64,000 nt of DNA, taken from contig NZ_BSVB01000001.1 in the NCBI RefSeq assembly GCF_030161895.1, positions 2,852,001 to 2,916,000 of the forward strand, in the 5' to 3' direction. Under the pieces are notes generated by a model that did not search any database, had not been told where the DNA came from, and saw only the letters and a list, made by a program, of their open reading frames with translations. This document shows, in pieces, positions 3,600-64,000 of this stretch. A program made the translations under genes and the position numbers. The stretch is from Pseudolysinimonas kribbensis. Lineage in GTDB: Bacteria > Actinomycetota > Actinomycetes > Actinomycetales > Microbacteriaceae. Positions within the stretch are counted from its first letter, which is position 1. Every line of letters begins with the position of its first letter.

Positions 3600-3704
3600 G
3601 CCCCGACTCTAGCGGCGCACCCCGACGACCCGCCCCGCGCAGGTGATCGTGCGCGAGCACATCGCGCCCCTTCCCTGAGCCTTTCGCCATCCGATCGCGC
3701 TCGC

Positions 3705-3748
3705 GCGGCACGCATCCGATGGCGAAACGTCGATCGGATGCGTGCCGC
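3705..3748. terminator. Perfect 16-bp inverted repeat, probable terminator of the MFS gene
   Basis: GCGGCACGCATCCGAT (3705-3720) and its exact complement (3733-3748) with a 12-nt loop, directly after the MFS stop at 3749. A second overlapping inverted repeat (TTCGCCAT 3683-3690 with ATGGCGAA 3719-3726) offers an alternative fold. There is no U tract. Confidence 0.6.
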
Positions 3749-59909: not shown

Positions 59910-60974
59910 ATGACGATTCCGCTCTCCGTGCTGGACCTCGCCGTCGTCCGATCCGACTCCTCGCACTCGGAGGCGCTCGCCGACACGATCGCCGTCGCGC
60001 GCGAGGCCGATCGGATCGGCTACCGGCGGTTCTGGGTCGCCGAGCACCATGGGATGCCCGGCATCGCCAGCTCGTCGCCGCCCGTGCTGATCGGCGCGGT
60101 CGCGGCGGCGACGGAGCGCATCCGCGTGGGGTCGGGCGGCGTCATGCTGCCGAACCACTCCTCGCTCGTCGTGGCGGAGCAGTTCGGCACGCTCGTCGCG
60201 CTGCACGGCGACCGCATCGACCTCGGACTCGGTCGCGCGGCCGGCACCGATCCGCTCGTCTCGGCGATGATCCGGCGCAACGTCGGCGTCGAGACCGTCG
60301 ACGACTTCCCCGCGCAGGTGCTCGAGCTGCTCGCGTACTTCGGCACCATCCCGGCGCTCGACGGGGGACAGGGCTCGCGCATCGTGGCGGTTCCGGGGAT
60401 GGGTGACTCGCCCGAGCTGTGGCTGCTCGGGTCCAGCGACTTCAGCGCGCGGCTGGCGGGCATGATGGGCCTGCCGTTCGCCTTCGCGCACCACTTCGCG
60501 GGCGGCGAGCAGACGCCTCTCGCGTTCGAGCTCTACCGCGACGCATTCCGGCCCTCGGTCGTGCTGAGCGAGCCGCACGCGATGGTCGCGATCTCGACGC
60601 TCGTCGCCGACTCCACCGACGAGGCGCGGCGGCTCATGCTGCCCGGGCAGCTGCAGTTCCTGCGGTTGCGCAGCGGGCATCCCACCCGGCTGCCGTCGCT
60701 CGAGGAGGCCGAGGCGCACCCGTGGACCGACGGCGAGCGCGCCTTCGCCGAGCAGCGCATCCGGCATCAGGCGATCGGCACCCTCGACGAGGTGCGCGCG
60801 GCGATCGACGGCCTGGTCGCGTCGACGGGGGCGGACGAGGTCATCGTCGTGCCGCAGGGGCCGACGCTCGACACGCGGCTGCGCACCCTGCGCGAGCTGG
60901 CTCCGAATGCCGCGCCGAGTGCCGCGCCCGACGCCGCGCCCGGTGTCGCGCCCGTCGCTGCACCCGCGACCTGA
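59910..60974 (+). CDS. LLM class flavin-dependent oxidoreductase
   Basis: 354 residues of the luciferase-like fold: [71 protein letters not shown] and [12 protein letters not shown] are the MsnO8-type signature. The tail repeats AAP units and is probably disordered. Uses FMN or F420; substrate unknown. It begins 48 nt after the sialidase stop. Confidence 0.92.
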
Positions 60975-60980
60975 CGGGCC

Positions 60981-61046
60981 GAGCGCCCACTTTCGCATCA
61001 TGTGGGCACCGGTGCACGTGCCGACGTGATGCGAACGTGGGCGCTC
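60981..61046. repeat. Long palindromic repeat, copy 1
   Basis: 20-bp arms (60981-61000 and 61027-61046, one mismatch) opening GAGCGCCCAC and closing GTGGGCGCTC, with a 26-nt loop that contains the palindrome GCACCGGTGC. Nearly the same unit recurs at 62068-62133, flanking the DUF559-type gene. Confidence 0.8.
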
Positions 61047-61136
61047 GCAGCCCTGCACACGCCGCGCGGCGTGGCGCCATCCCCGAAGGGCATCGCGGCG
61101 CCCCCGGGCGCCCCGTCGATCGGTCACCGTGTTCGG

Positions 61137-62116
61137 GTGGAGATCTCGATCGACCCGGATTGGCGCACGCGCTTCACCCGCACCGCGCATGCCGTGACCG
61201 CGCCGGAGCGCAACGCTCTCGCCCGCGCCGCGCGGTCGGGCCGTCTGCAGCGCGTGGTTCGCGGTGTCTACCGCGAACCTCCGCCGCGCCCGCCCTCGCG
61301 CGAGGACTCGCATCGGCAGCTCGTCTACGCCCATGACCTGCGCACCGAGGGTCGGCGGGTCTTCGTGAGCGAGTCCGCCGCGGCGCTCTGGCGGCTGCCG
61401 GTCATCGGCACCCCTCCGCCGATCGTGCACGTCGCCGACGGCATCGGAGGCGGGCACTCCTCGCGGGCGATCATGCGACACGCCACGGGGGTGCCGCGGG
61501 ATGTCGCGCGGATCGACGGCATCCGGGTCACGACGCTCGGCGAGACGGTCGTGAGCCTGCTGCGAACGCGTTCGCTCGCCGGCGGGCTCGCCGCGGTGGA
61601 CTCTGCGTTGAGCGGCATCGCGGAGGCGGGCGGCGCGCGCATCGCCCGCGAGGAGCTCGCCGTGCTCCTCGACCGGGAGGGGCGCGGGATGGGGCAGGCG
61701 CGACTTCTCGGCGCCCTTGCCGACGGGAGCGCCGGCTCACCGGGGAGAGCGTGAGCCGGGCCACGATGTACCGGGTCGGGGTGCCGCAGCCGCTGCTCCA
61801 GTTCCCGATGGTGGACAGGAACGGGGAGATGTTCGGCGACTTCTGCTGGCCGGAGCACGGACTGATCGGCGAATTCGACGGGATCGGCAAGTACCTCCGC
61901 GAGGAGTGGATGGACGGGCAGGATGCCGCCCGGGTCGTCATCGACGAGAAGCTGCGCGAGGACCGCATCCGGGCCCTCGGCTGGCGCGTGGTGCGATGGG
62001 GCTGGGCGGTCGCCCGTTCGCCCGCCGCATTGTCGACGCTGCTCGTGGATGCCGGCCTCCCGCGGCCGAGCGCCCACGTTCGCACCACCTGGGCGCCGGT
62101 GCACGTGCCGGCGTGA
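61137..62116 (+). CDS. AbiEi-antitoxin-like/DUF559 (Vsr-like nuclease fold) protein (frameshifted)
   Basis: About 326 residues. The N-terminal part (ERNALARAARSGRLQRVVRGVY) is the winged-helix typical of AbiEi-type proteins; VSESAAALWRLP and RVTTLGETVVSLLR follow. After the repair of one G in GGGG 61742-61745, the C-terminal part has FCWPEHGLIGEFDGIGKYL and DEKLREDRIRALGWRVVRW, the DUF559/Vsr-like nuclease core with Asp, Glu, Lys. The last 20 residues are encoded in the palindrome 62068. Role unknown. Confidence 0.82.
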
Positions 62117-62133
62117 TGCGAACGTGGGCGCTC
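62068..62133. repeat. Long palindromic repeat, copy 2
   Basis: Arms 62068-62087 and 62114-62133 with loop GGGCGCCGGTGCACGTGCC-type centre; closely matches the unit at 60981-61046. It overlaps the 3' end of the DUF559-type gene and lies before the convergent M3 peptidase. Confidence 0.8.
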
Positions 62134-62194
62134 AGCGCTACGGTCGCCGCCCGTCGCCAGCCGACCGTCGCCCGTCGCCCGTCGGGCTGAGGCG

Positions 62195-64000
62195 CTAGTC
62201 GAGCCCGCGGCGCTTCAGGAGCGGCGCGATGTCGGCGTCGCGACCGCGGAAGTCGCGGTAGGCCTCGAGGGGTCCTTCGATCCGCCGACGCCGAGCAGGC
62301 GCGAGCGGAACCGGTCGCCGTTGGCGCGGGTGAGGCCGCCGTTCTCCTTGAACCACTCGACCGTGTCGGCGTCGAGCACCTCGCTCCAGATATAGGAGTA
62401 GTAGCCCGCGTCGTAGCCGCCCGAGAACACGTGGGCGAAGTACGTGCTGCCGTAGCGCGGCGGCACGAGCGGGTCGTCGAGGCCGACCGCACGCAGGGCG
62501 TCGGCCTCGAACGCGGCCACGTCGGTGATCGCCTCGGCGGAGGCGCTCGACAGCTTGTGCCAGGCCTGGTCCAGCAGCGCGGCACCCAGGTACTCCGACG
62601 TCGCGAAGCCCTGGTTGAACTGCTCCGACTCCCGGATGCGCTCCACGACGGCCGGATCCAGCGGCTCGCCCGTCTCGTGGTGCCGGGCGTAGTTCTCCAG
62701 CACCTCGGGCCACAGCATCCACATCTCGTTGACCTGGCTCGGGAACTCGACGAAGTCGCGGAACACGTTCGTGCCCGAGAACTTCGGATACGTCACGTGC
62801 GCGAACAGTCCGTGCAGCGCGTGCCCGAACTCATGGAAGAACGTCGACACCTCGTCGAAGGTCAGCAGCGTCGGCTGGCCGGCGGCGGGCTTCGGAACGT
62901 TGAGGTTGTTGACCACGACCGAGCCGGGATGCCCCAGAAGCTCGTCCTGCGAGATGAGCGGGTTCATCCACGCGCCGCCGCGCTTCGAGTCGCGCGTGTA
63001 GAGGTCGAGGATGTAGAGGCCGAGCGCCGAGCCGTCCTCGTTGCTCACCTCGAACACGCGCGCATCGGGGTGGTAGGCGACGAGATCGGGGCGCTCGGTG
63101 AAGCTCACGCCGTACAGCAGGTGCGCGGCGTAGAAGACGCCGTCGTGCAGCACGCGCTCCGCCTCGAACCACGGGCGCAGTGCCGCGGTGTCGACGTCGT
63201 ACTTCTCGGCGCGCACCTTCTCGGTGTAGAAGCTCCAGTCCGAGGCGCGCAGCCCGCCGTCGAGGTCGCCCGCGACCGCGGCCAGGTCGGCCTGCTCGGC
63301 GCGTGCGTTGCGGGCCGCGGCGGGAGCCAGGCGGCCCAGCATGTCGGCCACGGCCTCCGGCGTGCGGGCCGTCTCGTCGGCCGTGACGGCCGCCGCATGC
63401 GACGAGAACCCGAGCAGCTCGGCGCGCTCGGCGCGCAGGCGGGCGATGCGCAGCACGTTCTCGCGGTTGTCGTGCTCGCCGCCGCGGCCGCCCCGTGAGC
63501 GGGATGCCGTCATGATCCGCTCGCGCAGCCCGCGGTCGGTGAGCGACGCCAGCCACGGGTGCCCGGTGGGCAGCACGAGGGTGACGAGCCAGCCCTCGAG
63601 GTCGCGCGCGGCGGCGGCCTCGCGCGCGGCCGACACCTCGCCCTCGCCGAGCCCGGCCAGCTCCGCCACATCGGTGACGTGCACCGCGAGCTCGTTGGTG
63701 TCGTTCAGCAGGTTCTTCTCGAACCGGGTGGTGAGGGTCGAGATCTCCTGGTTCAGCTCGCGCAGGCGCCGCTTCTGCGCGTCGTCGAGGGCGGCTCCGG
63801 CGATCGTCATCTCCGTGTACCAGCGCTCGACGAGGTAGCGCTGCTCGGCGTCGAGCCCGGCGGCGGCGTCGCCGCCGGCCTGGATGGCGTCGTGGATGGT
63901 CTTGACCCGCCAGTAGAGCATGGGGTCGAGCAGGATCGCGTCGTGATGGGCCGCGAGCTTCGGCGCGATGCGCTCCTCGAGCTCGTTCGTGAAGTCGCTG
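62195..64000 (-). CDS. M3 family metallopeptidase (oligopeptidase A/Dcp type), partial and frameshifted
   Basis: The frame is open to the window edge, so the N-terminus is missing; about 600 residues are present. Zinc site FFHEFGHALHGLF (HExxH), the third Glu in NEMWMLWPEVLENY, and the GGYDAGYYSYIWSEVL helix mark thimet-type M3 peptidases. One C added at the GGGG 62269-62272 restores the ending PLEAYRDFRGRDADIAPLL. Cytoplasmic; cleaves short peptides. Confidence 0.94.

Follow-up and report, generated by a model that had tools for sequence, protein, structure and literature searches.

Genes for AbiEi-like nuclease fusions in actinobacteria are often bracketed by palindromes of gene-specific sequence

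In many actinobacteria, a gene that joins an AbiEi-like part to a nuclease-like part stands between two matching palindromes, and this arrangement looks like an unrecognised kind of partnership between a repeat and an enzyme. We describe it from one locus in the window, i.e. the whole stretch of 64,000 nucleotides of the Pseudolysinimonas kribbensis genome that was analysed, and from related loci elsewhere. Besides the recurrent bracketing, it was found that each gene family has its own palindrome sequence, that the left and right ends of a locus change jointly, that the palindromes are dispersed in some genomes, and that residues of the nuclease type are conserved in the proteins. A layout with a 19-bp spacing is also present in most of the families tested.

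Results

The window locus

Table 1. Features of the AbiEi-nuclease locus and other features in the window
Feature	Position in window	Strand	Remark
Left palindrome	60977..61046 (core 60980-61047)	.	Upstream of the AbiEi-nuclease gene
Right palindrome	62064..62133 (core 62067-62134)	.	Overlaps the 3' end of the AbiEi-nuclease gene
AbiEi-like first gene part	61137..61754	+	Frame breaks near 61740-61750
Vsr/DUF559-like nuclease, second gene part	61751..62116	+	Fold inferred from a homologue model
Luciferase-like monooxygenase (Bac_luciferase), neighbour	59910..60974	+	
M3 peptidase (Peptidase_M3), neighbour	62215..64000	-	Convergent; continues past the window end
Solitary copy of the genome's second palindrome family	3681..3735	+	Family brackets the paralogue at G000:C1:975777

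The first-pass annotation of this DNA had described two near-identical palindromes around one gene, and the pair was confirmed (Table 1): the two copies, each of about 68 nt, share 91% identity across 70 nt. Arm lengths are 30 nt (90% complementary) and 24 nt (92%), and both copies fold far more stably than shuffles on both strands (z from -6.3 to -7.8). The last codons of the gene do lie inside the right palindrome as had been noted, since the stop codon is at 62114-62116. The claim of one gene with a nuclease-like C-terminus stood in part: an AbiEi-like and a nuclease-like part are present, but in the assembly they are split over two frames instead of forming a single open frame. By reading of the open reading frames, the frame of the M3 peptidase is apparently also lost near its C-end, at about 62265, and the genome, a single contig, is rated 86% complete. 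Therefore, assembly indels are the likely cause of the breaks. Intact relatives of the frame-broken gene exist. A search of the surrounding 9.3 kb gave no Rfam match at E up to 1.

An AbiEi-like domain fused to a nuclease

The protein was examined with a structure model of a homologue (L078 with 50 relatives; pLDDT 91.4). Residues 1-204 of the model match the AbiEi antitoxin 6y8q (Z 11.5, 179 residues aligned, rmsd 6.4), and residues 209-319 match the catalytic domain of I-Bth0305I, 3r3p (Z 11.4, 94 of 97 residues aligned, 2.6 A). The C-terminal part also matches Vsr, 1cw0 (Z 9.3, 106 residues aligned, 3.3 A). With Foldseek alone the same relatives ranked high with weak E-values from 0.002 to 0.9, that of 3r3p being 0.17. 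In the alignment, 15 columns are invariant in all 51 sequences, comprising E212, D244, E255, D257, K261, E280 and nine others, and the invariant acidic residues are presumably catalytic. The earlier suggestion of a Vsr-like nuclease at the C-terminus is thus upheld by a Vsr-type fold and by invariant acidic residues, and residues of the nuclease type, as sought in an alignment, are indeed there.

Sequence profiles give a similar picture of the N-terminal part. PADLOC AbiEi models match all 8 proteins scanned (best E 1.2e-17), and Pfam AbiEi_4 is found in 12 of the 51 relatives; the first part of the window gene matches AbiEi_4 at E 8e-5 with 23.1 bits, below the Pfam cut-off of 25. DUF559 (PF04480) matches none of the 51 relatives at E up to 0.01, L129 alone giving a weak E of 0.07, and the second part of the window gene has no Pfam match at E up to 1, PF04480 included. 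A sequence-profile search of solved structures returned one chance-level match, and an NCBIfam search of the protein gave nothing useful. The probable kinship of the nuclease part with DUF559 is suggested by the fold and the residue pattern.

Matching flanks across related loci

Of the 157 relatives found in a search with the C-terminal part, the 80 best were used. Pair tests cover 78 of these 80 loci, two without full flanks being left out. (L076 and L077 apparently represent a single locus on contig ends that overlap, and L066 and L068 coincide.) The hairpin scan showed palindromes of 60-75 nt just before the start and at the stop in many relatives. For example, the paralogue at G000:C1:975777 and L066, from another genus, are each bracketed by a palindrome pair of different sequence. 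Relatives at E up to 1e-10 occur in 94 of 150 genomes in one family-level sample.

Among the loci of the best 80 of 157 relatives, the upstream and downstream flanks match with a score of at least 20 in 58 of 78, and 20 are below this threshold. The same score was reached by 96 of 6006 mismatched flank pairs and by 3 of 292 control positions placed with identical geometry within these loci. In 44 loci, the downstream flank of the locus itself outscores all others among the 78. Hairpins with a score of at least 12 are present on both sides in 39 of 78 loci, compared with 1 of 292 control positions, and such a hairpin accompanies one or both ends in 53 of the 58 matching pairs. The best match is direct in 32 of the 58 pairs and inverted in 26, as expected for palindromes. 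When the proteins were grouped into clusters by 60% identity, 37 of 44 clusters had half or more of their members passing, while mismatched pairs between clusters passed in 19 of 5816 cases. The left palindrome ends at a median of 96 nt before the assumed start; the right one lies at a median of 13 nt after the stop and overlaps it in 8 of 37 loci. In L081, the two flanking copies are identical at 71 of 71 positions.

The flanking pair was also sought in a sample of PF04480 proteins from the phylum, with 29 new genes among the matches listed. They were kept or dropped by eye, and 9 of the 29 were left out: L213, L214, L216, L217, L219, L220, L225 and L232, whose frames, as chosen by the script, are plainly not DUF559, and L205, which lacks one flank. 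Among the matches listed, a pair score of at least 20 was found for 8 of 13 long proteins of 304 aa or more (L211, L212, L222, L223, L224, L227, L229 and L230), the others being below the threshold (L215, L218, L226, L228 and L231). Of the short proteins (up to 254 aa), none of the 7 evaluable ones has a flanking pair.

The link between gene and palindrome is real across genomes. The linkage with DUF559-type genes that the earlier annotation had asked about holds at this level (58 of 78 loci against 3 of 292 controls). The opposite possibility, palindromes spread at random without any link to the gene, is contradicted across genomes but has something in its favour within the window genome, where 12 of 14 unique copies are away from the gene.

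Gene-specific sequences and joint change of the ends

The palindrome sequences were compared for the 58 loci with the repeat. The figures for left-left and right-right comparisons were not used because they include homologous neighbour sequence. Palindromes are alike in 17 of 18 gene pairs above 75% protein identity, in 10 of 27 pairs between 60 and 75%, and in none of 1608 pairs below 60%. Each gene family therefore has its own palindrome sequence.

By both flanks, the 78 loci contain 14 syntenic groups, and 22 loci are unmatched. The largest group consists of 14 loci from several genera (L069, L070, L071, L077, L078, L094, L098, L109, L113, L123, L126, L127, L138 and L142), and its proteins are about 31-55% identical apart from two near-identical pairs. 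Matching ends are found in 11 of these 14 loci, and between members less than 60% identical the left-right comparison gives 1 match in 178. A similar case concerns the window gene itself. In L129, the luciferase (79% identity) and the M3 peptidase (76%) again flank an orthologous gene, whose two parts are 42% and 60% identical to those of the window gene, and despite this synteny the L129 palindrome pair differs in sequence from the window pair. Since the sequences are gene-specific and the ends still match within a locus, both ends change together. The contig of L129 is filed as an Acidobacteria MAG; with a gene order shared with the window at 76-79% protein identity, it is probably misbinned.

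In Agreia, the right palindrome is cleanly absent, just after the stop, from one (L074) of three orthologous loci, the missing length being 84 nt of L073 and 87 nt of L079. GCGCGC is present at both borders of the right palindrome in L079 only, and this is one case of presence and absence.

Copies in the window genome

The window palindrome has at least 15 full-length places in its genome. Two of them are in an identical stretch near the contig ends, which leaves at least 14 unique copies; the count is a lower bound, 40 of 51 candidates having been scored. The identical stretch (L023 and L024, G000:C1 3486832 and 33984) is at least 6.3 kb long, so the circular contig seems untrimmed, with an overlap of about 92 kb if continuous. 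Among the 14 unique copies found, only the window pair adjoins a gene of this kind and the other 12 are solitary; in tblastn searches with the two gene parts, which covered about 4 kb on each side of the 14 copies, the gene was located only at the window locus. The palindrome family of the paralogue has 8 places, of which 2 are flanking and 6 solitary, one of the latter being just 35 nt long. Taken alone, this census gives the link between gene and palindrome weak support.

Other DUF559-like genes of the window genome are located away from the copies of the window palindrome. They were excluded from the counts, and the frames chosen by the script are doubtful for several of them. L036 (pair score 27) and L039 (19.5) both have an upstream hairpin, L037 scores 20.0 without a flanking palindrome, L040 scores 13.5, its hairpin being some 1.3 kb away from the frame end that was scored, and L035 and L038 have neither hairpin nor pair (13.5 and 9). 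The palindromes of L036, L039 and L040 are about 0.9-1.4 kb before the scored frame end and differ again in sequence.

A RAYT partner was rejected for this genome: the Y1 transposase profile PF01797 has no match in the whole window genome at E up to 1, compared with a match in 10 of 14 control genomes. Short tags of the REP kind are rare or absent in the 12-nt flanks of the 14 copies (GTAG 0, CTAC 1, CGTC 2, GACG 2).

Dispersal in other genomes

In Compostimonas suwonensis, the L081 palindrome has at least 25 places, of which at least 23 are dispersed; this is again a lower bound, with 40 of 41 candidates scored. Among the places scored, only the pair flanking the gene is 100% identical to the query, and none of the 15 further places fetched has such a gene at a distance of up to about 1.5 kb by tblastn. 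The palindrome was not found in two other genomes. Judged by the frames around them, dispersed copies of the window family and of Compostimonas prefer intergenic DNA. Coding-like frames contain 1 of 15 Compostimonas copies and 3 of 12 solitary copies of the window family, against a fraction of 0.64 at random positions in both cases. For the second family of the window genome, 2 of 5 copies are in such frames against 0.5 at random.

When a model built on the window palindrome was run with strict filters, blind to the protein, against 150 family genomes, two others were matched, G112 and G040. In each of them there is a related gene, and its own palindrome is similar to the dispersed copies, with scores of 28.5 to 37 in G112 and 25.5 to 34 in G040; in the latter, the upstream palindrome alone passed the hairpin threshold. 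A second such gene in G040 has a different palindrome, which scores 9.5 to 11 against the three G040 copies. Dispersed copies are thus present in four genomes, namely the window genome, C. suwonensis, G040 and G112. The palindrome of L083 is nearly confined to its gene in seven Frigoribacterium genomes and one Curtobacterium genome: there are 2 to 3 places in three of them, four weak clustered partial copies in one and none in four. Dispersal is therefore not general.

Layout of the palindromes

In 62 palindromes from 45 loci, the halves contain a direct repeat at an offset of 19 (z 25 against mononucleotide shuffles, the next best offset having 4.8). This offset is the best one in 17.5 of 28 protein clusters when ties are split, and the repeat is weakly present in the window palindromes. 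In 17 aligned Compostimonas copies, GGCGCA in columns 5-10 and GGCGC in columns 24-28 are invariant together with their mirror images. We infer from this layout that the palindrome presents four protein half-sites on duplex DNA, rather than a hairpin.

Selection for the hairpin as a structure was considered and found no support. A change on both sides is seen in 3 of 23 arm pairs of the window palindrome, and compensatory change of the arms in the 14 copies of the window family does not exceed that of shuffles. Perfect hairpins of the terminator type were seen beyond the gene in L085 (+101 to +143 after the stop) and L082 (+111 to +154), the one in L085 being separate from its right palindrome.

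Discussion

We lean mildly towards a reading in which gene and palindromes form one unit, i.e. an AbiEi-like DNA-binding domain and a Vsr/homing-type nuclease bracketed by their own recognition sites and acting on them. Each palindrome would offer four half-sites, two motif copies 19 bp apart and their mirror images, and the N-terminal domain would read them as duplex DNA. The nuclease domain would then nick or cut at or near the palindromes. Repair of one flanking site from the other would keep the pair alike, with both drifting along with the protein, and occasional repair or copying events would place extra palindromes in intergenic DNA. Binding of the protein to its own palindromes is the likely part of this proposal and cutting is probable, while homogenisation and spreading of the palindromes may proceed through repair.

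AbiEi and Rv2827c are described as autorepressors that bind inverted repeats in their promoters, with two sets of repeats for Rv2827c (PMC7319586). Such binding supports the recognition of DNA by the N-terminal domain, and it also supplies the main rival reading, since an upstream palindrome can then be explained without any cutting. The AbiEi-like domain would only repress its own gene through the upstream palindrome and the nuclease would act elsewhere, e.g. in repair or defence; the downstream copy would be a second operator or a roadblock, and the dispersed copies would be sites of a regulon. We regard this as rather unlikely, although the position of the left palindrome (a median of 96 nt before the assumed start), the likeness of the 19-bp layout to protein sites and the Frigoribacterium palindrome that hardly leaves its gene all agree with it, as do the promoter repeats bound by AbiEi and Rv2827c (PMC7319586). 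By itself, autoregulation leaves unexplained why a matching copy accompanies the stop codon (13 nt downstream in the median, with overlap in 8 of 37 loci), why the L081 pair is identical at 71 of 71 positions, why both ends change jointly and why one genome has 23 or more dispersed copies, of which 1 of 15 tested is in a coding-like frame.

A classic mobile element that transposes as a whole, either IS-like with palindromic ends or with MITE-like solo ends, would account for the defined ends, for the dispersed solo copies and for the presence and absence of the right palindrome in Agreia (84-87 nt, with GCGCGC at both borders in L079). On the other hand, the genes frequently stay at a conserved position (among the 78 loci there are 14 syntenic groups, of which the largest spans several genera, besides 22 unmatched loci), the solo copies have no gene remnants by tblastn in the fetched flanks, and the window genome has no Y1 transposase match, so that we consider such an element improbable. 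It is very hard to credit that the gene is unremarkable and that its palindromes serve as common transcription terminators or as hairpins of stable RNAs, as their strong folding and intergenic preference might suggest, because a T-rich tail or A-rich lead accompanies 2 of 37 right palindromes (0.02 at random positions), L085 has a separate perfect hairpin further on, the left and right sequences match as those of terminators need not, control positions lack such pairs, and Rfam gave no match at E up to 1 over 9.3 kb.

Returning to the unit of enzyme and recognition sites, we propose, with slightly more doubt than confidence, that it is a widespread and undescribed unit of Actinomycetota, in which an AbiEi-nuclease fusion comes with a palindrome pair of its own, keeps the pair uniform through cutting and repair, evolves jointly with it and seeds solitary copies in the genome. 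If true, the co-evolution would be rapid enough for orthologues in one and the same position to carry unrelated palindromes, and we would have a system of the REPtron kind, selfish or domesticated, in which a homing-type nuclease takes the place of the transposase. A likely function would follow for a large number of genes annotated as AbiEi or DUF559. As the predicted site adjoins each gene, genome sequences could tell the DNA specificity of many nucleases, which would then be open to direct tests, and protein and site could be studied as they change in step.

Comparison with known systems

In the open-licence literature searched, no paper was found that connects nucleases of the DUF559 or AbiEi kind with palindromes at their flanks, or DUF559 with AbiEi. 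We rate the arrangement as a kind not yet described, with what appears to be a REPtron-like logic and an unrelated enzyme.

The nuclease part resembles the homing endonuclease I-Bth0305I, which we take to be of the EDxHD class, in the fold of the catalytic domain (Z 11.4, 94 residues). The window gene differs in being intergenic between two whole palindromes, not inside an intron or intein, and in the AbiEi-like N-terminal part of its protein. The C-terminal fold is also like that of E. coli Vsr (Z 9.3) and of DUF559 Vsr-like proteins such as Caulobacter VsrA (PMC12907096). Unlike the short DUF559 proteins, of which 0 of 7 evaluable ones have a flanking pair, the domain here is fused to AbiEi and bracketed by palindromes. 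The likeness to the AbiE type IV toxin-antitoxin system is in the N-terminal two-thirds, with an AbiEi fold (Z 11.5) and PADLOC AbiEi matches. However, no nucleotidyltransferase toxin (AbiEii) adjoins the window gene, whose neighbours encode a luciferase-like enzyme and an M3 peptidase, and a nuclease domain is fused at the C-end of its protein.

The closest parallel in organisation is the REPtron, in which REP palindromes accompany a TnpA-REP/RAYT gene (PMC8266576; PMC3733652). The first-pass annotation had drawn this likeness, and it stands for the recurrent bracketing, the sequences proper to each gene and some dispersal beyond the window, but not for the enzyme, there being no Y1 transposase match in the window genome. 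In both systems, the gene of a DNA-processing enzyme is bracketed by palindromes, the palindromes are dispersed in some genomes and mostly intergenic, enzyme and palindrome change together, and the gene tends to keep its place. The enzyme here has the AbiEi and Vsr-type nuclease folds, not HUH/Y1; the palindromes are about 68 nt long, without a consistent GTAG/CGTC tag and with a motif repeated at 19 bp; and the dispersed copies are far fewer (0 to 23 in the genomes counted, as lower bounds). REPtrons are the best-known partnership between palindrome and enzyme, and a second one with an unrelated enzyme would mean that such partnerships have had more than one origin.
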